Below are positions 11,208 to 26,346 of a DNA stretch of 42,573 nt, in pieces. The DNA comes from Gammaproteobacteria bacterium (GTDB lineage: Bacteria > Pseudomonadota > Gammaproteobacteria > Steroidobacterales > GCA-2729495). The DNA lies in contig JAJRUG010000020.1 in assembly GCA_024277915.1 (NCBI GenBank), positions 1 through 42,573 on the forward strand. The letters run 5' to 3'. A model generated the notes under the pieces. That model was given only the letters and a program-made list of their open reading frames with translations. It was not told the origin of the DNA and searched no databases. Numbering within the stretch: the first letter of the stretch is position 1; each line of letters opens with the position of its first letter. Both the position numbers and the translations under genes were made by a program.

Positions 11208-12250
11208 TGATGTGCAAGAGTCGCTTGTTTCGTTTCTTCTTCCTGCTGCTGTTATTGACCGGCCTGCTCGCCTGCAACCCGACCTCCCGGCCGACCGTTG
11301 CAACAGAAGTCAGCCGCGCCTGGCCAGCCCCTCCTGCGGCGCCACGCTATGTATTCGTGACCGAGTTTTCAACCCCGGAGGATCTGGGGATCCAACCATC
11401 ATTCTGGAGCAGGCTGGTAGGTCTCGTCGCCGGGGCCAGTGAACAGCGAATGGTTCGGCCAATGGCAGTAGTCGCCGACGATGAAGGCCAACTGATCTTT
11501 GTTGCCGATCCGGGTGTTCAGGGAGTTCACCGGTTCGATCTTCGGCGGAGCAAGTATCGGCTGCTGCGCATCGATGACAACATGCCTGCGCCCTCTCCGG
11601 TAGGAATGGCGATTTCATCGACTGGCCAGGTATTCATCACGGATTCTCAACTGGGCAGGTTGCTTACAGTCAAGCCGGGGTCAGACCACCTGGAATTTCT
11701 TGGTACCGGAAAAGATTTGCTGCAACCGACCGGGATCGTATTCGATGACAACACCGGGAAAATCTTTGTGGTAGATACCGCCGATCACAACATCAAGGAA
11801 TTCGCGCTATCCGGTGTTCTTGTCAATCAGTTTTCTCGGCGCGGCAATGCGCCGGGAGAACTCAACTATCCCACCTATCTGTGGCAGGACATGCAGCATC
11901 GACTACTGGTCTCTGATTCACTCAATTTTCGCATTCAGTTTTTTGATGCGGACGGGCAACTCAGAGACGGTTTTGGCAAGGTCGGGGATGGCTCCGGCAG
12001 CCTTTCACGCCCGAAGGGCGTTGCCTCGGACAGTTTTGGGCATATTTACATCATCGATTCGATGTTCCATGCGCTGCAGGTATTCGACGAAACCGGCACA
12101 TTACTACTAAGCCTCGGTGAGCAGGGACAAGGAGCCGGAGAATTCTGGCTGCCGAACGGACTGTTCGTGGATGTGAACAATCTGATCTATATCGCTGACT
12201 CCCATAATCAACGGGTTCAGATTCTTCAGTATGTAGGTGTCACACCATGA
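11207..12250 (+). CDS. NHL-repeat six-bladed beta-propeller lipoprotein B
   Basis: 347 aa. The ATG overlaps the barrel stop codon by one base (TAATG), so translation is coupled. The N-terminus (RLFRFFFLLLLLTGLLAC) contains a lipobox with Cys23 and Asn at +2, predicting outer-membrane retention. Six NHL blades follow, from PMAVVADDEGQLIFVAD to PNGLFVDVNNLIYIADSHN. It is a paralogue of lipoprotein A: both share a segment before the propeller resembling PxxPRxxFxTxxSxxxDL, here PAAPRYVFVTEFSTPEDL. Having two related lipoproteins flank one barrel suggests they act as a pair. A binding or scaffolding role is inferred. Confidence 0.88.
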   Translation: MMCKSRLFRFFFLLLLLTGLLACNPTSRPTVATEVSRAWPAPPAAPRYVFVTEFSTPEDLGIQPSFWSRLVGLVAGASEQRMVRPMAVVADDEGQLIFVADPGVQGVHRFDLRRSKYRLLRIDDNMPAPSPVGMAISSTGQVFITDSQLGRLLTVKPGSDHLEFLGTGKDLLQPTGIVFDDNTGKIFVVDTADHNIKEFALSGVLVNQFSRRGNAPGELNYPTYLWQDMQHRLLVSDSLNFRIQFFDADGQLRDGFGKVGDGSGSLSRPKGVASDSFGHIYIIDSMFHALQVFDETGTLLLSLGEQGQGAGEFWLPNGLFVDVNNLIYIADSHNQRVQILQYVGVTP

Positions 12251-13941
12251 GGATTCGACTGAGTTGGCTGGTTGGTGTGGTGGCGCTGCTGGTCACCGTT
12301 GACCCATTGCTGGCGAGTGTGGCGGATACCCGCCACAATCTATCGGTCTCGGGGCCGGGTACCACGAAATCCGGTCTGGAAAGTCAGATTTGTATTTTTT
12401 GTCATACACCGCATAGCGCCTCTCCGGATGCGCCCCTGTGGAACCGGCGCCTCCCCGGCACCACTTATGTGCCATATAGCAGCAGCACCGCTGTTGCACA
12501 GCCAGGCCAGCCCACTGGTGCTTCCATCCTGTGCCTGAGTTGCCACGACGGCACCATCGCGCTGGGCGAAGTGTTAAGTCGAACAACGCCCATATCAATG
12601 ACAGGCGGTATCACCACAATGCCCGGTGGGTCGGCACTGATCGGCACCGATCTGTCCCACGATCACCCAGTGTCATTTGATTATTCCAGCAGTCTTGCAA
12701 GTCAGAACACAGAGCTTGCCGATCCTGCAACCCTGCAACCGGAAATCAGGCTGGATGACAACGGGCAGCTGCAATGCACAGCTTGTCACGATGCGCACAA
12801 CGATACCTACGGTAATTTTCTGGTCTGGCCAAACACTGGCTCCGCACTATGCAAGGCCTGCCATTTGAAGGAAGGCTGGCAAATATCGGCGCACAGTACA
12901 TCCGCAGCTACCTGGAACGGACAGTCACCCGATCCCTGGCCGCTGCGTGACCGGACGAACGTTGCAGATAATGCTTGTGAAAATTGCCATATGCCCCACC
13001 TGTCCACAGGTGGCCCCCGGCTGCTGATGTACGGTGATGAACAGCAGAACTGTTCTGCCTGTCACAACGGCAATGTGGCCACTGACGATGTGATGACAGT
13101 ATTCAACCAGTTGTCGGCTCATCCAATGACAGCAACTACACTGATTCATGACCCTGGAGAGCAAAGCATCGTATCCAGCCGGCATGTCGAATGTGCAGAC
13201 TGCCATAATCCGCATGCGGCCCGGGCAGCCACTGATCCTCTATCAGGCTCACTGGCGAATATCCGTGGCATCTCTATAGACGGCATAGAGACAGATCCTG
13301 TTTCCAGGGTTTATGAACTGTGCTTCCGTTGTCATGCAGACAGCCCGAATCAACCCATCCCCAGAACACCGCGCCAGTTACCACAGGTGAATACCCGGCT
13401 GGAATTTCAATTGGACAACCCGTCTTTTCATCCGGTCGCCGGACCGGGAAGAAACCCGACAGTACCAAGTCTTATCGCCCCATGGACGGTAAGCTCATCG
13501 ATGGGATGCGTGGATTGCCACAACAATAATGCAGCGAGCAGTGCAGCCGGTTCCGGCCCGGAGGGACCACATGGCTCGGCATTTTCACCCATCCTCGTGC
13601 AGCGCTACGAAACGCTGGACAACACACCGGAAAGCGCTTCCGCCTATGCACTGTGTTACAACTGCCATGATCGAAACAGCATTCTCAATGATGACAGTTT
13701 CAAAGAGCACAAAAAACATATCGACAAGGAAAATACACCCTGCAATGTTTGTCATGACCCTCACGGTGTCAGCAGCCAGCAGGGAAACAGCATCAACAAT
13801 TCCCACCTGATCAACTTTGATACCTCGGTGGTATTCGCCAACTCCAATGGCTTGCTTCGGTTTCGGGATAACGGGCAACTGGCCGGTTCCTGCGATCTGG
13901 AGTGTCATGGAGAGGATCACAGGGACGAATCCTATCCCTAG
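12247..13941 (+). CDS. Exported dodecahaem c-type cytochrome (11 CXXCH + 1 CX3CH)
   Basis: 564 aa with a signal peptide (cleavage near PLLA). The start overlaps the previous stop by four bases (ATGA). Eleven CXXCH motifs are present (CIFCH, CLSCH, CTACH, CKACH, CENCH, CSACH, CADCH, CFRCH, CVDCH, CYNCH, CNVCH), plus a C-terminal CDLECH, a CX3CH site that may also take haem. The first four, at residues 49, 96, 177 and 202, reproduce the spacing and flanks of the tetrahaem protein at 7271 (CHTPHS, APLWN, CLSCHDGT, CHDAHND). This is therefore an OmcE-like module fused to an eight-haem extension. Position after the barrel and NHL genes makes it a candidate conduit, terminal reductase or filament cap; these roles are inference. 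Confidence 0.9.
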   Translation: MRIRLSWLVGVVALLVTVDPLLASVADTRHNLSVSGPGTTKSGLESQICIFCHTPHSASPDAPLWNRRLPGTTYVPYSSSTAVAQPGQPTGASILCLSCHDGTIALGEVLSRTTPISMTGGITTMPGGSALIGTDLSHDHPVSFDYSSSLASQNTELADPATLQPEIRLDDNGQLQCTACHDAHNDTYGNFLVWPNTGSALCKACHLKEGWQISAHSTSAATWNGQSPDPWPLRDRTNVADNACENCHMPHLSTGGPRLLMYGDEQQNCSACHNGNVATDDVMTVFNQLSAHPMTATTLIHDPGEQSIVSSRHVECADCHNPHAARAATDPLSGSLANIRGISIDGIETDPVSRVYELCFRCHADSPNQPIPRTPRQLPQVNTRLEFQLDNPSFHPVAGPGRNPTVPSLIAPWTVSSSMGCVDCHNNNAASSAAGSGPEGPHGSAFSPILVQRYETLDNTPESASAYALCYNCHDRNSILNDDSFKEHKKHIDKENTPCNVCHDPHGVSSQQGNSINNSHLINFDTSVVFANSNGLLRFRDNGQLAGSCDLECHGEDHRDESYP

Positions 13942-13957
13942 GGGAGGGCTTCAGTTT

Positions 13958-14851
13958 GTGCTTAATTACATCTGGCAAGTATTGGCGCTCACGGCAATGG
14001 CATTCCCGAGCTGGACTGCAATGGCAGAGGATGGCCAGAATCCGCACTGGCGCACCGACGCTTGCGATACCTGCCATATAGAAAAATCACCAACCGCCGG
14101 GAATCCTTTGCTCAACGCTGCCCCGGATGATGCCCTCTGTCTGGACTGCCATGCTGCAACGAGTGAGTCAGCTTGCCGCCATCTGTCAACGATTCCGGCA
14201 GATCCTGACATGCAAAGACGTATGCCCGGGTCATTCCAGGCTTCACTGCGGGATGATCAGGTGGTGTGCGAAACCTGTCATGAGCTTCCTGCACAGTGTC
14301 TGGATGAGCGGCGAAATGAGCGTTTCACCAACCCGATGTTTTTAAGAGAGGGGCCATTTCACCAGCGCAGTGACCCTTGCTACCTGTGTCACGATAAGAA
14401 TGCCTACACAAAACTGAATCCACATGATCAATTTGCCGATAGTGGCGATTTGCGAGAGGCGATATGCCTGTTGTGCCACACGAGTGTTGACGCAACGGGC
14501 AAGATCACCGGGAATAATCTCTCTTTTAGTACTGGTGATGATCTTTCGGCCATGTGCACAGGCTGTCACCCCGTAGAACCTCACCCAGGGGCAACATTTT
14601 CATTTTCAGGAACCGACAGCTCCAACCACCTGGTCATTCCTTCTCCTGAAGTGCGCCGCCGGATGGATGAAACAGCAGCAAGCACCGGAATCAGGTTACC
14701 GGTTGATCCTTTATCAGGGAAAATATTCTGTGCAACCTGCCACGATCCGCATGATGATAATTTGCCCGATTATCCGGTTACCCCGGCCGATACACGTGAT
14801 ACAAACAGGCTGCGTCAAAAAAATATCTGTCTGGCATGCCATGACAAATAG
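13958..14851 (+). CDS. Exported octahaem c-type cytochrome
   Basis: 297 aa from a GTG at 13958, chosen because GGGGAGGG lies 9 bases upstream and a clean signal peptide follows (ending AFPSWTAMA). The frame is open back to 13817, inside the preceding gene. Eight CXXCH motifs are visible: CDTCH, CLDCH, CETCH, CYLCH, CLLCH, CTGCH, CATCH and a terminal CLACHDK. The last pair (CATCHDPHDDN, CLACHDK) is typical of doubled-CXXCH cytochromes. It starts 16 bases after the dodecahaem gene, ends this plus-strand operon, and converges with the giant cytochrome 39 bases downstream. It is probably a soluble periplasmic or secreted electron carrier. Confidence 0.87.
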   Translation: MLNYIWQVLALTAMAFPSWTAMAEDGQNPHWRTDACDTCHIEKSPTAGNPLLNAAPDDALCLDCHAATSESACRHLSTIPADPDMQRRMPGSFQASLRDDQVVCETCHELPAQCLDERRNERFTNPMFLREGPFHQRSDPCYLCHDKNAYTKLNPHDQFADSGDLREAICLLCHTSVDATGKITGNNLSFSTGDDLSAMCTGCHPVEPHPGATFSFSGTDSSNHLVIPSPEVRRRMDETAASTGIRLPVDPLSGKIFCATCHDPHDDNLPDYPVTPADTRDTNRLRQKNICLACHDK

Positions 14852-14890: not shown

Positions 14891-17800
14891 TCAGCGGCGA
14901 TTCCGGCGCTCTTCCTCTGAGTGGAAATACTGGTAGCGAAATATTGAATCCGCTCCGTGGCAATCAGCACACAGGAATGAAGCCGTACTGGACAGGCGCA
15001 GAAAGCTGGTGCTGATATCACCTTCGGTGTTCTTGCCTGGGGCAGGCTGAGTCAGGTCTGCCTGCCACTGGTGAGGATCATGACAGCTTGAGCAGCTGAT
15101 GACACCGGTCAGGGCCGCATGGCCTTCATTATCAAATACCGGTAGTGGCGCGACTGTGACCGGGTGCAGGTCTTCACGCAGTTTTTCTGACCAGGCTATG
15201 ACCTTGTCGGGGTGCAGCATATTTGGCGGGATCTTGGCTTGCGCAACCGCGTTGTCGACATGACAGCTCCGGCAGGTTTGCTCCACCGGGTTATCGCCAT
15301 CGCCCAGGGTCCTGGCCCACAGGCGCATTGGTGAAATGGCATTGTGTATGCTGTGGCAAGCACCACACAGGCCGGATGTCTGGACTGTCTGGGCATGGTC
15401 ATTCATGTCCTCGGGCCCGGTAATGGCAAGATCATGGTCGGTGCCAAGCACCTGTTGCTGATCGCGATGGCACTCACTACACAACTCACCCCGCATCGCA
15501 GACATGCGCAAGAAACTGTCACCGGCATCACCTTTGCTGTCGGGGGTCTGGCCGCTACGGCTCAACCGGTCATCCGCTTGCCATTGGTGGGGGTTATGGC
15601 GGCTGCCGCAGTCCACTGTACCGTCATGCATCGCCTGCTTGCCATCCGGCGTGTACAACGGCAGGTGTTCCGGGAGGTCGGCATTCGCCACCTTGACCTG
15701 AAGAGGGGGGCTGTAGCGACCAGGCTGTGTTTCTTCGGCATCACCCTTGTCACGGTGGCAGCTGGTGCAGCGCTTTTCACCAGCACTGAGCCCGGGACCC
15801 TCGTCTCTGGCCCACAAAAATGTACCCTTGGAATTATGCGGTTGATGACAGTTTTCACATACACCGGAGACAGCATTCCGGGGTGTCTCTTGATCCAGTA
15901 ACAAATGCTCGCCTCCATGCATGGATAAAGACACCACGGCCTGGTCGGTATGGCAATTGATGCACAGATCACTGTTGCCCTGCTCGCTGATGCGCAGGAA
16001 GCTATTGCCTGAATCGCCTTCAACATCGAGTGCAACCACCTCGGTATCCGGCGACCATCGATGCGGATCATGGCAACTGCCGCAACTGACCTGCCCATCC
16101 TGCCCGGCTCGCTGGCCATGCTGGTTGAAGAGGGGGAGTGGCAGTAGCGGGTCAGCTCCGGGCAGTGATGCAAGGCTATTGCTCCATTCATCCAGGCTGG
16201 TGCGAATACCAAGATCGGTGATCGGAACATCCAGGGGATGGCTGTGATCGCCGACCAGTTTCTTTGCGGCAACCCCATCCGGATTGTGGCAACTGAGACA
16301 GGGAGTTGCTGCAGTACTTGTCTGACCCGGTAGTACCCGGCCCCACATGCTTAACCCGGTACTGTTGTGTACCTGGTGGCAGCTACCGCACAGTCCGGAC
16401 TGCGCGGCTGTTTGATCGAGCGCATTACGTGCCTCAGGCGCCACTTTAGCCAGATCATGTTCGGTTCCCTGTATCAACCACTTTTCCTCGTGACAGGCCC
16501 GGCACAGTTCCGAATCCGGGCCATCGGCTATACGCAGGAAACTGTTACTGGCATCGCTGCTGTCACCGGGTTTGCCTGCATGGCCCGGCCGTGCCGGATC
16601 CCACTGGTGAGGATCGTGGCAACTTGCACAGGTGACCAGGCCAGTGTTGCTGTTAACCAGCTTCAGGCCATCACTGCTGAAGGTGGGCAACTCCACCGGT
16701 TGTCCGAGCCGTCCGACATCAACACCCACCGGGTGGCTATAGCGTCCGACCAGGTGCTCCTCAGCCAGACCACCCTCGTCATGGCAGCTCAGGCATAGTG
16801 CCGCCATGGCATCCTGGCTTGCCCCCGGCTCGCGAGCCCACATCTTCGGGCCTTTGCCCTGATGCGGCAGGTGACAGGCACTACAGACATCACCTTCAGC
16901 TTCCGCAACCAGCTGCATATCGTGTTTACCGCCGGCAATCCGGCGCTGTTTCTCGTGACAGTCTCCACAAAGCGATGATTGCTTGTTGTCGGCGACCAGC
17001 AGACTGGACGATGGACGCGCTTCGTGGAGTTTGTGGCAGGTCTCACAGATCACTTCACCATCGGGACCCGACCTGGCGCCCTGTTCTTCCAGTGATGGCG
17101 GAATCCTGGCCTGCTCGGGGATTATATTTACAGGGTGAGTGTGCAGACGTGCTGCAGCGGCCATGGAATCAGCGGCGTGATCCTCGTGACAACTGCCACA
17201 TAACTGGGATCGGTCATTTGCTGTGACCAGCAGTTTTTCTTCCCGGGCGGCATGTGCACTGTGGCAACTCTGGCAGGTGATTTTTTCTTCATTACTCAAT
17301 TTTGCACCCGTCGTATCAAACAAGGCAGGGCGTCCTTCCAGCGCCTCATTGAGCGGGTGGTAACCCGCAGCGGGGCCTTTTGTTTTCTCATCATGGCAGG
17401 CCTGACACAGCTCGCCGTCGCGGCTGCGTACTCGCATGAAAACCGGTGAATCGGTGGCTCCCCATTCGACACCATGGGCAGTGTGGCAGGTACCGCAGTA
17501 TATTTTACCGTCATCGTTGAGCGGGAAAAGGTTCTTGCCCTCCACGATCGGGATATGGATTTCCTCGGACGGTTCTTGCCCGACCGGGTGAGCATGTTCC
17601 TTGTTTTTCCACAGATCACGTGATTCCAGCACCCAACCGTCGTGACATGACAGGCACATGCGCTCGGTACTGGAGACATCCTGCCTGCCGGATTCAACCA
17701 GCGGCCTGGGATCGTAGGAGACCAGGGGTGTCACATCATCACGTTTGAATTCATTCAGCCACATAATATGACAAAGTGCACATTCGCGTTTCGCTGACGG

Positions 17801-17899
17801 CAGTCGCGGTGCGGCAGTTACATGATCTGCAATCAACAGAAAAAGAATCAGCGGTGTCAGTAACCGCACCAGACAGGGAAAAACCTGTCTGGTCATCAA
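14891..17899 (-). CDS. Giant exported multihaem cytochrome, 23 intact CXXCH of 24 ordered sites
   Basis: 1002 aa. The signal peptide is about residues 1-29 (LLTPLILFLLIADHVTA), and there is no C-terminal anchor. Twenty-three CXXCH motifs occur. From residue about 339 the protein consists of four tandem blocks of roughly 160 residues (starting near 339, 504, 681 and 845), each with four motifs in the order CH.PHN..g..mWaR, CLSCH, CxSCHDPHQW...NSFLRI, LCxxCH...gtEHDL. The first eight motifs form two less regular groups, so the plan is 6 x 4. In the third block the expected CXXCH is CGSRH (Arg767; TGC to CGC, base 15601). It is the last gene of the minus-strand operon, overlapping the NHL gene by four bases. 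It is likely a long periplasmic or extracellular wire. Confidence 0.9.
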   Translation of the reverse strand: MMTRQVFPCLVRLLTPLILFLLIADHVTAAPRLPSAKRECALCHIMWLNEFKRDDVTPLVSYDPRPLVESGRQDVSSTERMCLSCHDGWVLESRDLWKNKEHAHPVGQEPSEEIHIPIVEGKNLFPLNDDGKIYCGTCHTAHGVEWGATDSPVFMRVRSRDGELCQACHDEKTKGPAAGYHPLNEALEGRPALFDTTGAKLSNEEKITCQSCHSAHAAREEKLLVTANDRSQLCGSCHEDHAADSMAAAARLHTHPVNIIPEQARIPPSLEEQGARSGPDGEVICETCHKLHEARPSSSLLVADNKQSSLCGDCHEKQRRIAGGKHDMQLVAEAEGDVCSACHLPHQGKGPKMWAREPGASQDAMAALCLSCHDEGGLAEEHLVGRYSHPVGVDVGRLGQPVELPTFSSDGLKLVNSNTGLVTCASCHDPHQWDPARPGHAGKPGDSSDASNSFLRIADGPDSELCRACHEEKWLIQGTEHDLAKVAPEARNALDQTAAQSGLCGSCHQVHNSTGLSMWGRVLPGQTSTAATPCLSCHNPDGVAAKKLVGDHSHPLDVPITDLGIRTSLDEWSNSLASLPGADPLLPLPLFNQHGQRAGQDGQVSCGSCHDPHRWSPDTEVVALDVEGDSGNSFLRISEQGNSDLCINCHTDQAVVSLSMHGGEHLLLDQETPRNAVSGVCENCHQPHNSKGTFLWARDEGPGLSAGEKRCTSCHRDKGDAEETQPGRYSPPLQVKVANADLPEHLPLYTPDGKQAMHDGTVDCGSRHNPHQWQADDRLSRSGQTPDSKGDAGDSFLRMSAMRGELCSECHRDQQQVLGTDHDLAITGPEDMNDHAQTVQTSGLCGACHSIHNAISPMRLWARTLGDGDNPVEQTCRSCHVDNAVAQAKIPPNMLHPDKVIAWSEKLREDLHPVTVAPLPVFDNEGHAALTGVISCSSCHDPHQWQADLTQPAPGKNTEGDISTSFLRLSSTASFLCADCHGADSIFRYQYFHSEEERRNRR

Positions 17900-18831
17900 G
17901 GTGATATCTCGAATACTGAAACCTGGTTTTTCAGCATTTCAACGACATACAGTCGATCCTGTGTATCCAGTGCAATACCGGTCGGTGTGTCAAAGCGCCA
18001 GGGCATGCCGTCTTCACTACCGAGTACATAAAGAAACTCACCTGAATCCGCGAATACCTGTATCAGGTTCATATAACTGTCCGAAACGTAGAAACGACCT
18101 GCACTGTCAACGGCCACTCCCTTGGGACGGAAAAATTGTCCCGGCAAAACACCCCAGTCGCCAACCACCAGAGACAAATCTCCGCCTGGATTAAAAACCT
18201 GAACCCGTGTATTTAATACATCGACTACGGCAAGGCGGCCATCCGCCAGCAGTGTTGCACTGGCAGGATAGCGGAATTGACCGCGGTTGGAGCCGTTGCT
18301 GCCCCATTCGCGTAACAGATTTCCCTGACGGGAAAATACCATGACTTTATGATTCCTGTTGCCGGTAATATACAGTTCCTTGCCGTTGTGATTAACCGTG
18401 ATATCAATGGGTCGTGCCGGTTTGCCGCCATCATGCATGACGATACTACTGATAAAATTCCCCGTCTGGCTGAAAATCTGAATTCGGTGATTTCCGGTGT
18501 CGGCTACGTAGATTTCTCCATTGCCAGCGGTAATGCCAACCGGGCTACTGAACTGCCCCTCAGCTTCGCCCGGCCCGCCGATCTGAAATCGGTACCTGCC
18601 ATTGTGATCGAAGACAACGACGCGGTGGTTACCACCGTCGACCACGTAGATATACCGTGCATCGACGGCCACATCGCTGGGCAGTGCCAACAGATCACTG
18701 GTCTGGCCACCGAGTTCCATCAGCGGTTGAATGGCGCGAGTCGGAATAGAATCTGCCTTGCCGGGGCAGGAAATCAACAGGAAAAGAAAAATGAAAAAAC
18801 TCTTGGCGACCAGCTTACGGCTCAGGCACAT
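17896..18831 (-). CDS. NHL-repeat six-bladed beta-propeller lipoprotein C
   Basis: About 311 aa. Three consecutive ATGs occur at 18837, 18834 and 18831; the third has GGAG at proper spacing. It gives a hydrophobic lead ending in a lipobox (FLFLLISC, Cys22, Pro at +2). Six canonical NHL blades follow, such as PVGITAGNGEIYVADTGNHRIQIF and PKGVAVDSAGRFYVSDSY. It overlaps the end of the trihaem gene upstream and the start of the giant cytochrome downstream, so it is co-translated with both. It is closer to the textbook NHL consensus than lipoproteins A and B. It may position or secrete the giant cytochrome. Confidence 0.87.
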   Translation of the reverse strand: MCLSRKLVAKSFFIFLFLLISCPGKADSIPTRAIQPLMELGGQTSDLLALPSDVAVDARYIYVVDGGNHRVVVFDHNGRYRFQIGGPGEAEGQFSSPVGITAGNGEIYVADTGNHRIQIFSQTGNFISSIVMHDGGKPARPIDITVNHNGKELYITGNRNHKVMVFSRQGNLLREWGSNGSNRGQFRYPASATLLADGRLAVVDVLNTRVQVFNPGGDLSLVVGDWGVLPGQFFRPKGVAVDSAGRFYVSDSYMNLIQVFADSGEFLYVLGSEDGMPWRFDTPTGIALDTQDRLYVVEMLKNQVSVFEISP

Positions 18832-19900
18832 CATCATCTCCGCTCGGTGGGGGGGAGGATTTGCGCCACCAGGCGCGTGGCTTTGCAGCTTCTTCATCGC
18901 TGGTTGGCATCTCCTGATCCTCACCGATCAGCGTCTTGCTATCGGGTAATGACAGGCCACTCTCGAAGAGTCTGGGAAGATAGAATTCCCGGTATTTGTC
19001 GACGATACCAACCAGATTGAGATTAGTGACGTCGTCGATTCGCTGATCGGAGAATCCGAGCTCACGAAACGGCAGGTAACTTTTGTCTTCTGCGATATGG
19101 CAACGCGAGCAGAAGCGACCCTTGGGGCTGACCATCGCATGAAAGCGTTTTTTCAATGCATCCTTGTCCTGATCGGAAAGCTGTTCGCGAATGGCCAGAA
19201 ACTCTTGCACATCGGATGATTGTTCAGTAATTTCCAGCAGCTCATTTTCACCGCTGCTGGTGTCATAAACCACAATCTTCGAATAGTAGTCATCGGTATC
19301 GACCAGAAACCCGGTGTCGGGGTTGGTACTGGTGCCGAAATGCGGCCCCTGTACCTCGATCCCCGAATAGTTCAGCCACGCAAATTGATAGTTTTCTTCC
19401 GGTGCTTTGCGCGGGTCCGTATGACAGGTCATGCAACCGATAAACTGGGTATGCATATTGAGCAGTGTGCGCACCATGCGCTGCTTGGAATGGGAATAGT
19501 CACCGTGGCAGTAGAAGCAGACTGATTTCTTGCCGAGGTTGACCAGATCCTGTTCGGGTTCGTTATGAAAATGCCGCATACGTTCCGTAAAACGCTGTTC
19601 ACTCAGTTCCTGTAACAGCTTCGGCTGTTCGGCACTACGCGGCAACCCAAGAAACCCGGTCAATGCGACAGTCAGCTCGAATAGCAATACCAGAATGATC
19701 GAACCGAGAATCAGCGTGGTCAGGAAGCTGATGACAGGGTGTCCTGTCCGTAGTCCGCTGATGCTGAACGGATCATTGCGGAAGGCACCGGGAATTTTAG
19801 CCTTGTGGTCAATGATGACCAGCATGGCGATGCCGAGCAGCACAAACAGCACTACTGTGAGGACAATAAAGATAACCAATTGAGGACTGACCTGACCCAT
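18815..19900 (-). CDS. Membrane-anchored trihaem c-type cytochrome (module 1)
   Basis: 361 aa. Two N-terminal membrane helices (about residues 8-30 and 57-82) precede a periplasmic domain with three CXXCH motifs: CFYCH, CMTCH and CSRCH. Conserved stretches around them (LLNMHTQFIGCMTCH, VGIVDKYREFYLP) reappear in the plus-strand paralogue at 24703 (FMNMHAFYLACETCH, VGMIEKYKEFYIP). The C-terminal tail is acidic and proline-rich (PPPSGDDDVPEP). It follows the 38-aa membrane protein by four bases and overlaps the NHL gene. Next to a cytochrome b it probably accepts electrons from the quinol-oxidising subunit. It is not a NapC/NrfH protein: it has too few haems and different spacing. Confidence 0.85.
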   Translation of the reverse strand: MGQVSPQLVIFIVLTVVLFVLLGIAMLVIIDHKAKIPGAFRNDPFSISGLRTGHPVISFLTTLILGSIILVLLFELTVALTGFLGLPRSAEQPKLLQELSEQRFTERMRHFHNEPEQDLVNLGKKSVCFYCHGDYSHSKQRMVRTLLNMHTQFIGCMTCHTDPRKAPEENYQFAWLNYSGIEVQGPHFGTSTNPDTGFLVDTDDYYSKIVVYDTSSGENELLEITEQSSDVQEFLAIREQLSDQDKDALKKRFHAMVSPKGRFCSRCHIAEDKSYLPFRELGFSDQRIDDVTNLNLVGIVDKYREFYLPRLFESGLSLPDSKTLIGEDQEMPTSDEEAAKPRAWWRKSSPPPSGDDDVPEP

Positions 19901-19904
19901 TACC

Positions 19905-20021
19905 CTAGTACTCGGTGAGTATCAACCAGATTGCAAAAAGACCAAGCAGTGTCGCGCAGAACACAAAGAACAGCGAGCTGTAAGCAATAATTTTTTGCAA
20001 TGCTGTCAGAGGTTTCATCAT
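19905..20021 (-). CDS. 38-aa single-helix membrane protein (module 1)
   Basis: A 38-residue peptide, MMKPLTALQKIIAY followed by one hydrophobic helix and a short LTEY tail. Its ATG at 20021 overlaps the cytochrome b stop codon (ATGA) and its stop lies four bases before the trihaem gene, so it is embedded in the operon. The size and topology are those of small stabilising subunits of respiratory complexes. The divergent operon has a similar-sized peptide at 22588. Function unknown. Confidence 0.65.
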   Translation of the reverse strand: MMKPLTALQKIIAYSSLFFVFCATLLGLFAIWLILTEY

Positions 20022-20944
20022 GAGGAAGTACTCTCGGCCATATCCTCGCCCGGTTTCCAGTTCGCCAGGAGATCCAGAAGATAGGCCCGTTCCCCGGGGA
20101 ACTCTACCAGGTTGCGCAGGTACTCCAGAAAATGTTCCTCGATCTGGTGCTCGCGGGTAATTTTTCCGGTCAGGAACGTCCATTGCATCGGGAAACGCCC
20201 CGGTGCGAGGTGAACGTTGTACCAATGCCAGAAAGCGATCACCAACAAAGCCAGCAGCGCTTCGTGTGGATGTGACAGACGCATCATCTCCTGGAAATTT
20301 GAAACAATACCAATCGGCAGCACAGCAGCCCAGAACTCCGGAAACAGGAAAGATGAGCCGGAGATAATCATTACCAGGTTGCCGAAAGCAGCGGCAAAGT
20401 AATGGATCTTCTGCTTGTACATGAACTTGTCCATTTCCGGTCGCTGATCATGCTTGCCTGCAAAATACAGCATGTCCTGTTTGAAGTCGCGGATATCCTT
20501 GAAAGTAGGAATGATGGTGCGCTGCAGTTCGAAACGCCCCCGCATTATCTGCTGGAGTGGTCCGAGCGTGATAGTGACCATGTGATACAACATCCCGAAA
20601 ATCATGACACTGGCGAGGGTACGGTGCATGATTCTGGATACGTCAACCCCACCGATCAGGGAATTAAGAGGCTCCGCCCAGAAATGATCAAAAAAAGCGA
20701 TCGGCAAGCCGGTGAAAGCCAGTGCCAGAAAGCTTACAAAGATCATCATATGCTGAATACGGGTATGAATAGAGTAACGCGGCAGATCGCCGATCGGGTT
20801 GGAGACAACATTTTTATACAGCAACACCTTGTCATCCGGCATTGCGGCGATCACCTTTTCGATCTCGCTGCGTTGCTGATCATCGACACGATGGATGCGC
20901 ATCGAAGTTTCAAGAACATCCCGGGCCTCTGCTGAAAGGTTCAT
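20018..20944 (-). CDS. Di-haem cytochrome b (FdnI/HydC-like), module 1
   Basis: 308 aa. A soluble N-terminal segment of about 50 residues is followed by four hydrophobic segments. Conserved histidines sit where the b-haem ligands lie in the formate dehydrogenase gamma/NiFe-hydrogenase cytochrome b family: RIQH (His65), IMHR (His107), HPHEALLAL and FWHWYNVH. The paralogue at 23891 keeps the same four sites (RVQH, LIHR, MHTDEALLAV, FVHWYNVH). It should oxidise or reduce quinol and exchange electrons with the flanking c-type cytochromes. It lies 26 bases after the octahaem gene and overlaps the small membrane protein. The extra N-terminal domain is absent from the paralogue. Confidence 0.85.
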   Translation of the reverse strand: MNLSAEARDVLETSMRIHRVDDQQRSEIEKVIAAMPDDKVLLYKNVVSNPIGDLPRYSIHTRIQHMMIFVSFLALAFTGLPIAFFDHFWAEPLNSLIGGVDVSRIMHRTLASVMIFGMLYHMVTITLGPLQQIMRGRFELQRTIIPTFKDIRDFKQDMLYFAGKHDQRPEMDKFMYKQKIHYFAAAFGNLVMIISGSSFLFPEFWAAVLPIGIVSNFQEMMRLSHPHEALLALLVIAFWHWYNVHLAPGRFPMQWTFLTGKITREHQIEEHFLEYLRNLVEFPGERAYLLDLLANWKPGEDMAESTSS

Positions 20945-20970
20945 GATTTTTGTTTCCTGTTAGTGTTCAA

Positions 20971-22101
20971 TCACGACTCACGATCGCGTCCGCGTCGTGA
21001 ACGTCGCCACCAGGATGAACCGTTGCGGATACGCCATCCGACTCCGTCTCGCCGGCGACCGACAGTTTCGAATAATGCCAGACCGACCAGTGCTGCAATC
21101 ACAATGTAAGCCACCCAGTTGTATACAATCTCGGCATAATAGATGAATGGCCCCTCTTCGCGATCACTGGTCGGATGGGGGTCGAGTGCCGCATAGTTTT
21201 CATTGGCATAGGTATGGCAGCGTTTGCAGGTTTCGACTTTGCGCCCGGGGCTGACCGGCGACAACGGATCACGTGAAGGGCGTATGAAGTGGGCGCTGAG
21301 GTAATAGTTGTCCTGGTCAACATGGCAATCCAGGCAGTTGGGCGTGTTCTGGAATCCATAGCGTGTCACTTTACCGTGAAAGCTGTTGTTATAGGATTCC
21401 ACTGCCAGGCGGTATTTTTTTCCCAGCTCACGTCCTTCAGCAGCAGCCACCTTCAAATGACGTTCCACCAGGCGCTCGTCCCCGTGACACGATGAGCATA
21501 GCGCCACAATTTCCTCCGGAGTGCGCTTGACCTCGCGAATACGCCGGCTGGTATGTTTATACCAGTTTTCAACAAACTTGTTGTCTTCATGACAGATAAC
21601 ACAGCGGTCTACAATCTCTTTTGGCGGCTGTCCTTCATCGGGGTTATAGATCGGGTTACGGTGGCAGGTCACACAGTAAGGTTTGTCTATATCTGGTCCT
21701 TCAGCCTGTTTCTCCCGGCCGTGAGTACTGCGCTGATATTCCTCAGCGATCAACCGGTGACTGAAATTTTTCCCTGTTGCAGGGTTCTTGATAGAGTGAC
21801 ATTCAGAGTCACAGGTTACGCCGGTTTCAACATCACGGTGCGGGAGTTGCTTGATGTAGGTATGACAATCTGTGCAGGGTACGTTGCGGTGTACGGTGGA
21901 GCCGAAGATATGCGGCATGACATAGTAAGATCGTTTGGCGCCTTCTTCTGTGATCCGACCCATCTTCGGGTACTTGTGACACAACAGGCACCCTTCATCA
22001 TCTTCGAAGGCTGCCAGAGAACCAGCAGACCAGAGAATCCCGCAGAAGGCAATTAACAATAGCCATCCTGTTTGCCGAATATTTACAACGCCATGATTCA
22101 T
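20971..22101 (-). CDS. Octahaem c-type cytochrome with C-terminal membrane anchor (module 1)
   Basis: 376 aa from the ATG at 22101, which gives a normal signal peptide (about 30 residues); an ATG at 22155 would add an unusual extension. It has seven CXXCH motifs (CLLCH, CTDCH, CVTCH, CVICH, CSSCH, CLDCH, CKRCH) and one CX3CH, CDSECH, as the third site. A single membrane helix (about residues 325-347) is followed by a very basic Arg/Trp-rich cytoplasmic tail. The paralogue at 22836 has the same order and topology and also a CX3CH at site three. It is the first gene of the minus-strand operon and probably the electron-accepting subunit on the periplasmic face of the cytochrome b. Confidence 0.87.
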   Translation of the reverse strand: MNHGVVNIRQTGWLLLIAFCGILWSAGSLAAFEDDEGCLLCHKYPKMGRITEEGAKRSYYVMPHIFGSTVHRNVPCTDCHTYIKQLPHRDVETGVTCDSECHSIKNPATGKNFSHRLIAEEYQRSTHGREKQAEGPDIDKPYCVTCHRNPIYNPDEGQPPKEIVDRCVICHEDNKFVENWYKHTSRRIREVKRTPEEIVALCSSCHGDERLVERHLKVAAAEGRELGKKYRLAVESYNNSFHGKVTRYGFQNTPNCLDCHVDQDNYYLSAHFIRPSRDPLSPVSPGRKVETCKRCHTYANENYAALDPHPTSDREEGPFIYYAEIVYNWVAYIVIAALVGLALFETVGRRRDGVGWRIRNGSSWWRRSRRGRDRES

Positions 22102-22136
22102 GGGTTTCTTTTGGTTGTATTTCAGAACCTGACAAT

Positions 22137-22142
22137 AGTATA
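22137..22142 (-). promoter_or_regulatory. Candidate -10 element of the minus-strand cytochrome operon
   Basis: On the minus strand TATACT (5 of 6 to consensus) lies about 36 bases upstream of the octahaem start codon. No convincing -35 is visible at 16-18 bases, which would fit an activator-dependent promoter. An FNR-like palindrome lies upstream, at 22170-22183, centred near -46 relative to a start site predicted from this element. Confidence 0.35.
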
Positions 22143-22169
22143 GGGTAAAATGCAAGTGCAGTGCCCCTA

Positions 22170-22183
22170 TTGACCTGTGTCAT
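22170..22183. promoter_or_regulatory. FNR/DNR-like palindrome between divergent operons
   Basis: TTGACCTGTGTCAT fits the TTGAY-N4-RTCAA layout of FNR/DNR boxes with one mismatch in the last base. It lies in the 97-base gap between the divergent cytochrome operons, where one site could serve both. Anaerobic or redox control would suit the locus. The spacing to the predicted -10 is not the canonical -41.5, so this is only a candidate. Confidence 0.35.
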
Positions 22184-22198
22184 TTCCGGCGAGAAATC

Positions 22199-22426
22199 AT
22201 GAGTACTTACAAAGCCCGGTTGCGGGCTCTTAACCGTATCGTATGGATCGCATTATTTTTCGCCCTGTCCGTCACATTTGCCTGGCTGGAATGGCGTTCA
22301 GAGGGCAGGTCAACTATGGGCTGGTTTCTTGCAACCGGCCTGTGGTCTGCAGCCTGCGGAATCGGGTTTTCGGGTGGTGAATGGTGGATTCGTCGTTCCG
22401 GTGTTAAAAACCGCCGGCCGGAGTAG
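22199..22426 (+). CDS. Small two-helix membrane protein
   Basis: 75 aa with a basic N-terminus (MSTYKARLRALNR), two hydrophobic segments (about residues 14-30 and 40-58) and a basic C-terminus. A weak GCGAGAAA precedes the ATG. It is divergently placed from the minus-strand octahaem gene and 160 bases ahead of the next small gene. I do not recognise the family. Membrane location and position suggest it belongs to the plus-strand module, perhaps as an accessory subunit. Confidence 0.55.
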   Translation: MSTYKARLRALNRIVWIALFFALSVTFAWLEWRSEGRSTMGWFLATGLWSAACGIGFSGGEWWIRRSGVKNRRPE

Positions 22427-22520
22427 TAATCAACGCCTGTTTATGCGCACTGTCCACTGTGTGCACCCCCTGCTTGCCCGGCGCACTGTTTGAGTCTAAT
22501 ATAGTATTGGTTGCAGCTTA

Positions 22521-22534
22521 TTGTGTACAATCAA
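22521..22534. promoter_or_regulatory. Second FNR-like site upstream of module 2
   Basis: TTGTGTACAATCAA matches the FNR consensus TTGAT-N4-ATCAA at 8 of 10 specified bases. It is 53 bases upstream of the 37-aa gene and overlaps a weak promoter-like pair (TTGTGT, 17 bases, TATACC at 22544-22549). Together with the site at 22170 it suggests common redox control. It is a candidate only. Confidence 0.3.
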
Positions 22535-22587
22535 TAAGTTGCATATACCTGCATGTTGCCGATTGTGAAAATCAAGGAGGTACAGGC

Positions 22588-22701
22588 ATGGTCAAAGCAG
22601 ACAGCCCATTTCGCGAGATCTGTACCTGGTGTATCGCGACTCTGGTGGCTCTGATACCGCTGGTGTTACTGCTGGTCTGGTTGATGTCTTCCGCTGACTA
22701 G
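22588..22701 (+). CDS. 37-aa single-helix membrane protein (module 2)
   Basis: A 37-residue peptide with an N-terminal MVKADSPFREI and one hydrophobic helix ending LLVWLMSSAD. AAGGAGG lies 7 bases before the ATG, one of the best ribosome-binding sites in the window, which strongly supports translation. It is the likely counterpart of the 38-aa peptide in module 1, although here it precedes the octahaem gene. It is too short to assign to a family. Confidence 0.6.
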   Translation: MVKADSPFREICTWCIATLVALIPLVLLLVWLMSSAD

Positions 22702-22747
22702 TCTGCGGGTGTGGCCGTCTTCGTTTGAATACGTTATATACTGCCTG

Positions 22748-22767
22748 TTGATATGTATAAGTATCAA
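22748..22767. promoter_or_regulatory. Inverted repeat upstream of the module 2 octahaem gene
   Basis: A perfect inverted repeat, TTGATA (22748-22753) and TATCAA (22762-22767), is separated by 8 bases. It lies about 70 bases before the octahaem start. The half sites look like FNR halves, but the spacing is wrong for FNR. It could be another regulator's operator. Confidence 0.3.
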
Positions 22768-22835
22768 TATCCGGGCAGAGTGTAGCGTGGTAAAAATCCT
22801 GCAACAGGAAAAATTAAACAAGGGCGGCACAGCCA

Positions 22836-23888
22836 ATGATTAGGCGCTATTCGCACATATTTGGTGCGTCTCTGGTAGCTATTGTTTCGTTGACTCTCTA
22901 TTCAGCTCCGGTAGTAGCGGATGACGAACTCGATTGCATCATGTGCCACAAATACCGCGGTCTGAGCAGGATTGATGAAGACGGCGAATTCAGGCTTTTT
23001 TACATCAACCAGGAGTTATTCAACAGCGGACCCCATCGCCGTAACCAGTGCAAGGATTGCCATAACGATATCGACCGTATCCCGCACAAGCCTGCTGTCA
23101 AAGTGGACTGCGCACAGCAATGCCACATTGTAGAACCTTCGGGTGAGAAAAGATTTACCCACGAATCGATTGCTGAAACACTTGCGCGCAGTGCTCATGG
23201 CAAGCTTGATGCCGAGGGCAACCCGAAACCCTTTCAGGAGGATTATCCTGACTGCAAGGATTGCCACGATCAGCCATTCTACCGGCCGGTGTCCGTGGAC
23301 AAGGGTACGATTCACCCAGGGGTCAGTGAACGGGCTGTCACCCGATGCAAAAGCTGCCACAAGAACGGCGATTTCGCCGAAGACTTCTACGAACATGTCA
23401 CTTCACGATTGCGTAAAACACGCTTCCCGATGGAGACCATTGAGAACTGTGCCAAGTGCCATCAAGACCCGGAGTTCAGGGAGCGGCACGAGCTGGATGA
23501 TGTTGTTACTTCCTACAAGCAGACTTTTCACGGAAAACTGATTGCGCTGGGTTCCGAAAAAACGGCGGACTGCCTGGACTGTCATGTTGTTGCCGGTGAG
23601 AACACACATCTGATCGAGTCACAATCAGAACCGGCTTCGGCTGTCTATAAGACAAACGTTCCAGCAACCTGTGGAACCGAAGGCTGCCATACTCAGGCAG
23701 GGCCCTATCTGGCGGGTTTCCAGACGCATGTGACCTATGATCGGGAAAAATATCCGATGCAATTTTACATGCTGATTTTTTTCAAGGGCCTGATCGCCGT
23801 AGTATTGTATTTCTTCCTGGCGCTGATCTTTTTTGAGCTGTTGCGCCGCTTGTTTCCGAACTTTACGTTCATCAGGGAGAAGCGCTGA
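22836..23888 (+). CDS. Octahaem c-type cytochrome with C-terminal membrane anchor (module 2)
   Basis: 350 aa with a signal peptide ending near PVVA. Six CXXCH motifs (CIMCH, CKDCH, CKDCH, CKSCH, CAKCH, CLDCH) are joined by CAQQCH (CX3CH, third site) and CGTEGCH (CX4CH, last site). A single hydrophobic helix (about residues 311-333) near the C-terminus anchors it, with a short basic tail. Segment-by-segment similarity to the minus-strand protein at 20971 is clear: CHKY near the N-terminus, THESIAE versus SHRLIAE, FHGK and NCLDCH/DCLDCHV. It heads the plus-strand bc-type module, with the cytochrome b gene two bases downstream. The unusual haem motifs are probably functional because their positions are conserved. 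Confidence 0.87.
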   Translation: MIRRYSHIFGASLVAIVSLTLYSAPVVADDELDCIMCHKYRGLSRIDEDGEFRLFYINQELFNSGPHRRNQCKDCHNDIDRIPHKPAVKVDCAQQCHIVEPSGEKRFTHESIAETLARSAHGKLDAEGNPKPFQEDYPDCKDCHDQPFYRPVSVDKGTIHPGVSERAVTRCKSCHKNGDFAEDFYEHVTSRLRKTRFPMETIENCAKCHQDPEFRERHELDDVVTSYKQTFHGKLIALGSEKTADCLDCHVVAGENTHLIESQSEPASAVYKTNVPATCGTEGCHTQAGPYLAGFQTHVTYDREKYPMQFYMLIFFKGLIAVVLYFFLALIFFELLRRLFPNFTFIREKR

Positions 23889-23890
23889 TC

Positions 23891-24706
23891 ATGTCCCGAT
23901 ATGAGCCCATTATTTACAAGGACGGCAAGCGTTATTTCTACCGTTTCTCCGTACACCAGCGGGTGCAACATGTCATTCTGTTCAGTATGGTTCTGTTGCT
24001 GGCAATAACCGGTTTTCCATTACGTCATGCCGAGGAACCATGGGCCAAACCGCTGTACGATTTTATGGGCGGGACGGACCTGGCGCCATTGATACATCGT
24101 GCCGCAGGTACGGTATTACTGGGTCTGTTTGTCTACCACACGATCTACTGGATCGTGTTGTTTATTCGGAATGATCTCGGCCAGCTCAAGGCTCATGGGC
24201 AACTGAACTTCAAAACCGGCATCAAGGCATTTTTTTCCCAGGAGATGGTTCCCAACATGAGGGATTTTCACGACATTGTGGATGCGTGGAAATACCTGTT
24301 GTACTTCACCAACCGGCCACCCCGGCATGAAAGAATGTCATGGCGGGAGAAATTTGATTATTTTGCACCTTACTGGGGAGTGCCCATACTCGGCCCGGCG
24401 GGCGTCCTGTTGTGGTGGCATGATGAAGTCACACACTTCATTCCGGGTATCGTGCTCAATGCCGCTTACATCATGCACACAGACGAGGCGTTGCTGGCGG
24501 TGCTGTTTCTGTTCTTCGTACACTGGTACAACGTTCACTACGCGCCCGAAAAGTTCCCCGCTGCCACGGTCTGGCTGACCGGATATCTCACTGAGGATGA
24601 GATGATTCACGAGCATTACTCAGAGTATCTGAGAGTAATGACCGAGCATGGTCTTGAGGATGAGATCAGGCCGCAGCATTTCGGTGGCCAGGAGTATGAG
24701 CTGTGA
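23891..24706 (+). CDS. Di-haem cytochrome b (FdnI/HydC-like), module 2
   Basis: 271 aa, four membrane helices. Putative b-haem ligands are His in RVQH, LIHR, MHTDEALLAV and FVHWYNVH, all conserved in the module 1 paralogue, which is longer only at its N-terminus. It starts two bases after the octahaem gene and its stop overlaps the GTG start of the trihaem gene, so the three are translated together. It probably forms the quinone-reactive core of an inner-membrane complex with the octahaem and trihaem proteins. The direction of electron flow cannot be deduced from sequence. Confidence 0.86.
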   Translation: MSRYEPIIYKDGKRYFYRFSVHQRVQHVILFSMVLLLAITGFPLRHAEEPWAKPLYDFMGGTDLAPLIHRAAGTVLLGLFVYHTIYWIVLFIRNDLGQLKAHGQLNFKTGIKAFFSQEMVPNMRDFHDIVDAWKYLLYFTNRPPRHERMSWREKFDYFAPYWGVPILGPAGVLLWWHDEVTHFIPGIVLNAAYIMHTDEALLAVLFLFFVHWYNVHYAPEKFPAATVWLTGYLTEDEMIHEHYSEYLRVMTEHGLEDEIRPQHFGGQEYEL

Positions 24707-25599
24707 ATCTTTTCAAGCGTATTGTATTCAAGCTCTATGTGCTGATCCTGATGGGGTTTACAGTCTGGTATGGCATGTTCATGTACCCGTTGATTTTTGG
24801 TTTCGAGGGAAAGGAAGAAGCAGCCTTGTCCCTTCAGGAACTGGGTGACGGCGTAGCTGCCGATGAGGAAATGTTTGCCCGGCTGATCGAGGAACAGGAA
24901 CACACCAGCAGGACCGATCTTGGCTTCAAGGTAATCGAGCAGCCATACATCGAAGGCCGGTTCCACCATATTGGTTTCAGTGTCCAGAAAGATCAGACCA
25001 GTATGTGCGTGCGCTGCCACGGAAATATTCCGCACGATAAATCTGTGGAGCTGCGCAGCTTTATGAATATGCATGCATTCTATCTTGCCTGTGAAACCTG
25101 CCACATGCCGCCAGAGGAAGGTCAGCCGGATCACGAGTTTCGCTGGTATGACAAGGATAGTGGCAAGCTTGTCCCCAATCCGCGCGCCTTGCACGATATT
25201 GAAGAAAGTTATCGGACTGCAGCGCGCATTTATCCCACCTATGGAAACTACGGCGCGAAGATCGCGCCCGGTATTGAAGAAAACGGGAGCTTCCGCCTGC
25301 TGCATGGCAAAAAGGATATGCTATTTGTAGAACGTTATATCAGTGAGCAGGGACGCCTTACCCCCGAGAAGAAGTCACAGATGGAGCGCGTCATTCATCG
25401 CGGGGTCAGCGAGAAACCAATCGAGTGCAAGTATTGTCATAATGATCAGGATCAGTTCCTGCCATTCGCCAAACTGGGTTACCCGCCACAGTGGACTACA
25501 GAACTGACGAACTCTTCTGTGGTTGGTATGATTGAGAAGTACAAGGAGTTCTATATTCCAAGTTTCCTGACCCCTGGCATCGACGAAGGGGCAGATTGA
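24703..25599 (+). CDS. Membrane-anchored trihaem c-type cytochrome (module 2)
   Basis: 298 aa from a GTG at 24703 (GTGA overlap with the cytochrome b stop). One N-terminal membrane helix (about residues 5-27) anchors a periplasmic domain with three CXXCH motifs: CVRCH, CETCH and CKYCH. It is a paralogue of the protein at 18815, sharing a MNMHxFYLACxTCH-like core and the VGMIEKYKEFYIPSFL C-terminus, but lacks the extra N-terminal helix and acidic tail of that protein. It is the third subunit of the presumed bc-type complex. Confidence 0.86.
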   Translation: MNLFKRIVFKLYVLILMGFTVWYGMFMYPLIFGFEGKEEAALSLQELGDGVAADEEMFARLIEEQEHTSRTDLGFKVIEQPYIEGRFHHIGFSVQKDQTSMCVRCHGNIPHDKSVELRSFMNMHAFYLACETCHMPPEEGQPDHEFRWYDKDSGKLVPNPRALHDIEESYRTAARIYPTYGNYGAKIAPGIEENGSFRLLHGKKDMLFVERYISEQGRLTPEKKSQMERVIHRGVSEKPIECKYCHNDQDQFLPFAKLGYPPQWTTELTNSSVVGMIEKYKEFYIPSFLTPGIDEGAD

Positions 25600-25611: not shown

Positions 25612-26346
25612 ATGTACAGGATTTGGATGGCGTTTGCCTTATTGTCACTATCTGCCGCAGCTGATGCGGAATGGACACTCAGGCAAACCGACGATGGTCA
25701 CTGGGTTACTACCAGCACGCCGAATGGCCACCAGTTCATTGTTACCCATAACCAGGCGAATGAAACCCATTTCCTGCTGGCGCTGGAGATTGACAAGTCA
25801 GCACCGGCTCTCCCCTCTCGCATATCCCTGTCTGTTGACCGTGGCCCGGTGACCGAGACCGGGCTTGTTCTGCTGGAGCAGCGACCCGGCAGTCGTTTAT
25901 TCAGGACGCAGCTGAGCAGCGAACAAAAGGCCGCTTACATTACGCGCATGATTGCCGGACTGACTTTGCGCCTGTGGTTTGGAGGGCAGGAGCCGGGAAA
26001 GAATGCGCTGCAGTTCTCCCTGATCGGCTTTACTGCCATATTCAATGATCTGCTGATTGCCGACCGGGTCGGGCGCCTGGATCCGGTCTGGTTGATCGAG
26101 CAGCACCGCGAGCGGGAACTGGGTTGTTATTACACCGCTAACCTGTTTGTCGCAGCGATGCAGAAACGTATTAGTGGCCGCAGCGCTGCACAGGTGCTGG
26201 AATCGCTGCCTCGTTCCGGAGAGCCTACAGTGGATGCAATGATCCCTGACATCATTTCCCAGGTTTACGCAGTGCAGGCCGCGCAGTTGCCGATTGAACC
26301 CAGGGGAGATAAATTTGCCATTTTCGAGGAGTGCATGGCGCAGTAG
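25612..26346 (+). CDS. Exported hypothetical protein linked to module 2
   Basis: 244 aa with a short signal peptide (MYRIWMAFALLSLSAAADA). The mature protein has a beta-rich first half (WTLRQTDDGHWVTTSTPNG) and a helical second half, with no CXXCH and only two cysteines (LGCYY, EECMAQ). I do not recognise the family; the first half vaguely resembles invasion-associated-locus-B-type folds, which I would not rely on. It starts 12 bases after the trihaem gene on the same strand, so it is probably the last gene of the operon. Module 1 has no counterpart. Confidence 0.65.
   Translation: MYRIWMAFALLSLSAAADAEWTLRQTDDGHWVTTSTPNGHQFIVTHNQANETHFLLALEIDKSAPALPSRISLSVDRGPVTETGLVLLEQRPGSRLFRTQLSSEQKAAYITRMIAGLTLRLWFGGQEPGKNALQFSLIGFTAIFNDLLIADRVGRLDPVWLIEQHRERELGCYYTANLFVAAMQKRISGRSAAQVLESLPRSGEPTVDAMIPDIISQVYAVQAAQLPIEPRGDKFAIFEECMAQ

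Follow-up and report, generated by a model that had tools for sequence, protein, structure and literature searches.

The question why bacteria maintain several inner-membrane gateways that all lead to a single outer conduit has been studied mainly in Geobacter (ImcH, CbcL and CbcBA). In Geobacter sulfurreducens, Cbc5 (CbcEDCBA, which includes CbcBA) is an inner-membrane menaquinol/cytochrome complex (PMC11434368, PMC7894505), and CbcL is a fusion of a nine-haem c-type cytochrome with a cytochrome b of the FdnI type. The present analysis concerns two divergent gene modules, M1 and M2, on 42,573 nucleotides of contig JAJRUG010000020.1 (the whole stretch is referred to as the window) from a gammaproteobacterial assembly of 3.1 Mb (GCA_024277915.1; 178 contigs, 92.5% complete). 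Each module is built around an octahaem cytochrome, a cytochrome b and a trihaem cytochrome. The region probably comprises two parallel inner-membrane interfaces between quinone and multihaem cytochromes that share a single trans-envelope conduit, with M1 and M2 kept as an ancient pair. This reading builds on the gene content, the paralogy and age of the trios, their co-inheritance, the single set of shared conduit genes and the family of the cytochrome b. As neighbouring ancient gateway types that are co-inherited across phyla beside one conduit set, M1 and M2 offer a compact natural pair for the gateway question.

With an FdnI-like cytochrome b beside an anchored octahaem and a trihaem cytochrome, each module is laid out like a quinone/multihaem-cytochrome oxidoreductase such as Cbc5 or CbcL. 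Cbc5 likewise unites a cytochrome b, several multihaem c subunits and a membrane protein (PMC11434368, PMC7894505), although its haem numbers are 7/12/2 as opposed to 8/3 here, a comparison made by description and not by sequence. A single CbcL-like polypeptide (multihaem c plus cytochrome b) was rejected as an identity for the modules; the genes are separate in both modules and in their M1 and M2 relatives, and a trihaem cytochrome, micro-proteins and a pair of types are additional to what CbcL contains. Distant kinship is found in both the multihaem part and the cytochrome b, not with Geobacter CbcL itself but with CbcL-like fusions (22-23% between the octahaems and the multihaem part of the fusion in the G035 locus, and about 36-39% for cytochrome b). 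The PCC3 and PCC4 systems (He et al. 2017), which combine large multihaem wires with a porin and an inner-membrane di-haem-b protein, resemble this locus in these parts, but their inner-membrane protein is a single one of ~300 residues with two HX13H motifs, and an octahaem-b-trihaem trio is not described for them; PCC3 was dropped as the identity of the conduit because its inner-membrane protein differs. By the account in PMC10734462, the Uet pathway of Candidatus Tenderia electrophaga shares with this locus, in composition only, a tetrahaem cytochrome, an NHL pair, a barrel (here presumed) and an 11/12-haem cytochrome, whereas no PPIase (peptidyl-prolyl isomerase) or UetDEG-type periplasmic trihaem trio was seen here. 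No description of an octahaem/cytochrome b/trihaem trio was found in the open-access papers searched. By analogy, the pair of trios would be an inner-membrane gateway of the Cbc/CbcL kind with an unusual and old pairing of two types; this does not assign the proteins to either family.

Two paralogous modules

The trios start at ~22.2-22.8 kb and run away from each other, M1 on the minus strand (22155-18815) and M2 on the plus strand (22836-25599). In each, the octahaem cytochrome has an N-terminal signal or transmembrane (TM) segment and a C-terminal TM helix, and the trihaem cytochrome has an N-terminal anchor. The genes are as follows.

18815..19900, minus: M1 trihaem cytochrome c; 3 haem motifs, two N-terminal TM helices (12-30, 56-74)
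19905..20021, minus: M1 micro-protein of 38 residues; one TM helix, ATGA overlap with the cytochrome b stop
20018..20944, minus: M1 cytochrome b, FdnI/b561-like; Pfam Ni_hydr_CYTB E 2e-9, M1-specific N-terminal extension of ~38 residues
20971..22155, minus: M1 octahaem cytochrome c; 8 CxxCH-type motifs, signal peptide/TM, C-terminal TM 343-361
22199..22426, plus: membrane protein of 75 residues heading the M2 operon; conserved in M2 loci (tblastn)
22588..22701, plus: single-TM protein of 37 residues ahead of the M2 octahaem; conserved in M2 loci (tblastn)
22836..23888, plus: M2 octahaem cytochrome c; 8 haem motifs, C-terminal TM 313-331
23891..24706, plus: M2 cytochrome b, FdnI-like; Pfam and profile matches
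24703..25599, plus: M2 trihaem cytochrome c; 3 haems, N-terminal TM region
25612..26346, plus: M2-associated protein of 244 residues; likely signal peptide, directly after the M2 trihaem

The coordinates bear out the initial annotation, which described octahaem, cytochrome b and trihaem genes in the same order on both strands, for these three large genes only; the short membrane genes differ. The extra 244-residue gene that it gave to the second module is likewise present, and homologues adjoin M2 in seven relatives (L062, L063, L068, L070, L072, L073 and L109), with no Pfam or NCBIfam match. Its claim of extra N-terminal domains in M1 holds in part. For the octahaem the apparent extension is put down to the choice of start codon, the longest open reading frame (ORF) starting at TTG and the ATG at 22101 being the likelier start, and a domain there was rejected, while the cytochrome b does carry its ~38 additional residues and the trihaem differs from its M2 counterpart by a second N-terminal TM helix with a loop and by a Trp-rich tail.

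Identity between the modules, spanning most of each protein, is 34% for the octahaem, 33% for cytochrome b and 29% for the trihaem (BLASTP E 1e-58, 5e-38 and 6e-28). Because CxxCH motifs by themselves let multihaem proteins align, one partner of each pair was shuffled 300 times with its haem motifs held in place. Local alignment scores were 488 for the octahaem pair (shuffle maximum 109), 334 for cytochrome b (54) and 255 for the trihaem pair (98), and they exceed every cross-match to the window's other multihaem proteins; for example, the unrelated 8-haem protein at 13817-14851 scores only 54-71. Scores so far above both controls imply that the likeness is real and well beyond chance. Sequence comparison thus supports the view that all three pairs are true paralogues and that duplication took in the trio as a unit.

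The cytochromes b show the four-helix homology and conserved haem-b histidines of the FdnI/b561 family. The M1 protein exceeds the cut-off of Pfam PF01292 (E 2e-9) and the M2 protein falls just under it (E 1e-6; 29.2 vs 30.1), and a profile match to FdnI (1kqf_C, E 6.7e-11) extends over the whole length. Membrane histidines 27, 69, 83, 196, 211 and 216 are invariant in M1, M2 and a third type, M3, and would suffice for two haems b in all three. Despite the whole-length match to FdnI, the gamma subunit of formate dehydrogenase-N, no formate dehydrogenase genes are present here, and assignment as a formate dehydrogenase gamma equivalog was rejected (TIGR01583, 51.1 bits for M1, E 1.6e-13, and 20.5 bits, vs a cut-off of 115.85; no FdnG/H neighbours). 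A cytochrome bc1/b6f complex was also rejected: the ORFs of the modules include no Rieske protein, and b6 is matched weakly and only in part. The octahaem has no sequence relative in the PDB, and a local match of the trihaem to octahaem tetrathionate reductase (1sp3) was taken as haem-motif resemblance.

Age and relationships of the module types

Relatives were gathered by searches of 369 class-level genomes and a scan of a collection holding one genome per species. Orthologues of M1 and M2 occur in vent and sediment Gammaproteobacteria, Candidatus Thiodiazotropha, Sedimenticola, Gallionellaceae, Sulfurimicrobium, Nitrospirota and Desulfobacterota, and of M1 also in Thiobacillus; the trio type M3 was found among these relatives. 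Co-occurrence of M1 and M2 extends over Gamma- and Betaproteobacteria, Nitrospirota and Desulfobacterota. Since the two recur together in several phyla, they look like a lasting pair and not a local accident of copying. Trios of all three types lie side by side near one NHL/giant cytochrome set in L083, L091, L087, L088 and L108.

In the cytochrome b tree M1 (50 rows, support 100, starred) and M2 (51 rows, 99, starred) are separate clades, and in each of them the Nitrospirota/Desulfobacterota sequences split from those of Pseudomonadota. The octahaem tree supports all three types (M1 98/97, M2 100/99, M3 100/97, all starred), and the trihaem tree supports M2 (100/99, starred) and M3 (96/84, starred), with M1 at only 71/19. 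The M1 and M2 proteins of the window each group with their own type from outside this genome, other phyla included. Contigs of metagenome-assembled genomes (MAGs) may be misbinned, and the trees are to be read with that caution. Two loci named Candidatus Polarisedimenticolaceae (Acidobacteriota; L097 and L098) are nearly identical to those of Sedimenticola, probably through misnaming or misbinning.

The initial annotation pictured a duplication followed by divergence and looked to trees in which each pair would be sister. Paralogy stands, but the duplication is not specific to this genome, M1 and M2 lying in different supported clades shared with other phyla. Sisterhood is weakly favoured for cytochrome b (85) and the octahaem (92/75, unstarred) and contradicted for the trihaem, in which M2 and M3 are joined at 99/94 (starred) and M1+M2 is rejected (p-AU, approximately unbiased test, 0.033). 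Nearest sisters among the three types thus differ by gene, cytochrome b and octahaem leaning towards M1+M2 and trihaem towards M2+M3. The M1/M2 duplication itself is ancient, M1 and M2 being two of three ancient types. A recent local duplication of the operon in this lineage with fast divergence, as first pictured, could explain the adjacent divergent placement and the common order of the three large genes; it is nevertheless extremely improbable, given that the window's M1 and M2 cluster with own-type orthologues from other phyla and that identity between the two is only ~33%, against 80-82% with their own types from L062 and about 40% with those from Nitrospirota.

Pairing and co-inheritance of M1 and M2

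M1 lies within the same stretch of at most 20.8 kb in 24 of 49 M2 loci, and many of the remaining stretches end at contig boundaries. The paired loci are divergent in 7 cases, place M1 before M2 in 10 and M2 before M1 in 7, and it is therefore nearness that persists and not orientation. A clear M1 orthologue was present in 14 of 20 genomes, of which 19 were chosen as M2-only at the locus and one (L062) has both. Concatenated M1 and M2 distances are strongly correlated among 23 loci (r = 0.955; 0/2000 permutations), and locus by locus M1 and M2 show almost the same identity to the window. Such mirrored distances indicate a shared history, vertical or by joint transfer, and are not proof of interaction.

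Several observations weigh against an ancient pair feeding one conduit. A clear M2 orthologue was found in only 3 of 18 genomes picked for M1-only loci (15/18 without), and the same-genus genome G001 shows M1 without M2; the pair is consequently not obligatory, and, set against the 14 of 20 above, M1 does without M2 more readily than M2 without M1. Common descent of the host genomes, or joint transfer, also contributes to the mirror correlation. On the conduit side, the 705-residue protein at 9090..11207 has no Pfam or NCBIfam match and no hydrophobic TM segment, and its barrel is only presumed.

It may be asked whether M2 was instead gained horizontally in this lineage, beside an existing M1 cassette, the pair having been assembled time and again and not inherited jointly from early on. 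G001, the existence of stand-alone M2 trios, the variable orientation and the rearrangement of the conduit block among G001, L062 and the window are all in keeping with such gain. The mirrored trees (r = 0.955) and the split of both types between Nitrospirota/Desulfobacterota and Pseudomonadota speak against it, and loss in G001 accounts equally well for the missing M2; both modules may also have been transferred jointly. Horizontal gain of M2 is thus considered unlikely, if a serious contender, and old joint inheritance of the pair is preferred.

A single set of conduit genes

Beyond M1 the window holds the following genes.

7271..7963, plus: 4-5-haem cytochrome; haem motifs
8057..9208, plus: NHL protein; Pfam NHL E 5e-19, N-terminus lipobox-like by eye
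9090..11207, plus: 705-residue protein, presumed outer-membrane beta-barrel; position between NHL genes conserved
11207..12250, plus: NHL protein; Pfam NHL E 2e-22
12247..13941, plus: 12-haem cytochrome; 12 haem motifs
13817..14851, plus: 8-haem cytochrome; too little homology to count as a module octahaem
14891..17899, minus: giant ~23-24-haem cytochrome, single copy, after the NHL gene; haem motifs
17896..18924, minus: NHL beta-propeller protein, single copy, after M1; Pfam NHL E 6e-37

Judged by composition only, the constancy of these neighbours (NHL, giant, 4-, 8- and 12-haem cytochromes and the presumed barrel) points to a conduit in the outer membrane that is broadly Uet-like. The NHL gene keeps its position after M1 in most M1 loci, and counterparts of the giant cytochrome in relatives carry 18-24 haems. 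The NHL gene and the 24-haem gene that follow M1 occur once each in the window, where the trio alone is present twice, so that the whole-operon duplication proposed initially applies to the trio, through the paralogy of its three pairs, and not to these genes. Nitrospirota and some Desulfobacterota have an NHL and giant gene for each trio; within that group the sets are closest to each other and not to the Pseudomonadota copies, which implies that they were doubled in a separate event. Joint duplication of NHL and giant genes with the trio was accordingly rejected for Pseudomonadota.

Gene order around the conduit varies. G001 has, on one strand, an 11-haem and an 8-haem gene, the M1 trio, NHL and giant; relative to it, the window has the M1-NHL-giant block inverted, with M2 beyond it. 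The divergent M1/M2 core is found again in L062, where the conduit block is inverted and lies at the opposite side of M2. In G001 a single in-frame stop interrupts the M1 octahaem gene (L021:2324-3535) downstream of its sixth haem motif, so that the gene is either broken or affected by a sequencing error. Within the conduit, the 12-haem protein and the 4-5-haem protein are related to each other (local alignment score 303). Next to the M2-only loci of Sedimenticola-type genomes (L094, L095, L098 and L100) are four small multihaem genes, conserved as a set, with 3, 3, 3 and 6 haems.

Proposed electron flow

In the proposed scheme the FdnI-type cytochrome b of each module would exchange electrons with the quinone pool. 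The periplasmic octahaem, anchored by its C-terminal helix, and the membrane-anchored trihaem may then relay them between cytochrome b and a periplasmic and outer-membrane chain that would consist of the giant 24-haem cytochrome, NHL propellers, the 4-, 8- and 12-haem cytochromes and the presumed barrel. M1 and M2 are presumably kept together because their jobs differ, be it in potential window, electron direction or expression condition.

The suggestion that the modules use different quinones finds no support. UbiG is the only ubiquinone marker over its cut-off in the genome, and the menaquinone markers menD and MqnA/D are not over theirs, which argues against a split by quinone type, within the limits of an incomplete assembly in which ubiA was not found (a weak match of the UbiA model beside a COX1 gene on C152 is probably haem O synthase). 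Operation at different potentials is plausible by analogy with ImcH, CbcL and CbcBA. Elsewhere the genome has candidates for a cbb3-type oxidase, two further COX1-family genes and, at a contig end, a fragment of the RuBisCO large subunit. As a guess from the oxidase, ubiquinone and the RuBisCO fragment, entry of electrons from an extracellular or solid donor is rated somewhat above outward respiration.

The modules might differ in direction alone, one oxidizing quinol and the other reducing quinone at the same potential and expression. One shared conduit, one quinone type by the markers found and the long retention of both modules would suit that division of labour; the conserved cytochrome b histidines, being the same in M1 and M2, do not, and it is judged improbable. 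Slightly more improbable still is service to periplasmic enzymes, such as nitrogen or sulfur oxyanion reductases, unrelated to the extracellular side. The weak resemblance of the trihaem motif region to 1sp3 and the location of M2-only loci away from conduit genes would fit such a role, but no reductase gene is fixed nearby, while NHL, giant and 8/12-haem conduit genes are. Two parallel quinone interfaces to one conduit therefore remain the preferred reading.

Possible exchangeable heads

Four relatives lack the cytochrome b and have other proteins in its place. In L058:4125-6304, L059:6443-8674 and L061:1212-3380 a NapH-like iron-sulfur (Fe-S) membrane protein of the Fer4_5 kind is joined to the octahaem or lies beside it, and in L060:2440-5385 the octahaem is fused to flavodoxin-FAD-NAD domains. 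In the L060 fusion the last haem (311) and the flavodoxin (445) are separated by a TM helix (355-373), which places the flavins inside and the haems outside. All four keep the trihaem partner and have NHL and giant multihaem fused in one gene. On the basis of these four loci it is tentatively proposed, with doubt somewhat outweighing confidence, that the octahaem, with the trihaem, may be a general adapter with an interchangeable head (a separate dihaem cytochrome b in M1, M2 and M3, a NapH-like Fe-S membrane protein or a cytosolic flavodoxin-FAD-NAD reductase) that would connect an envelope wire to the quinone pool, to carriers at ferredoxin level or to NAD(P)H; M1 and M2 would then be long-lived quinone plugs with distinct duties. 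The Fe-S and diflavin-head relatives would bear on how extracellular electrons could reach non-quinone pools, a matter central to lithoautotrophs that must make reductant from poor donors.

Short membrane genes and minor observations

A promoter scan of the window gave no excess over shuffles (12 found, 9.5 expected), and terminator-like sites (25, compared with 12.3 in shuffles) lie in many cases inside genes; neither was used. A different cluster, composed of a short cytochrome b, a 9-haem protein, a second cytochrome b and an 18-haem protein, occurs in Acidobacteriota and a Desulfobacterales MAG (L110-L114, L122).

Three short conserved membrane genes were overlooked in the initial annotation, that of 38 residues in M1 and those of 75 and 37 residues ahead of M2. 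By tblastn, conservation of the 38-residue gene extends over about 35 M1 loci, from Gamma- and Betaproteobacteria, and no such gene was found in the gap between cytochrome b and trihaem in L106 and L103 (Nitrospirota; 0 and 15 bases) and L105 (Desulfobacterales; 100 bases). By tblastn the 75-residue gene is found at 33-59% in M2 loci, M2-only loci included, and the 37-residue gene at E values down to 1.6e-10, including loci without a nearby M1. Compared with L062, nonsynonymous (dN) and synonymous (dS) divergence over these very short alignments is 0.137 and 2.7 for the 38-residue gene, 0.32 and 0.76 for the 75-residue gene, and 0.27 and 1.14 for the 37-residue gene, values from which all three appear to be under purifying selection.

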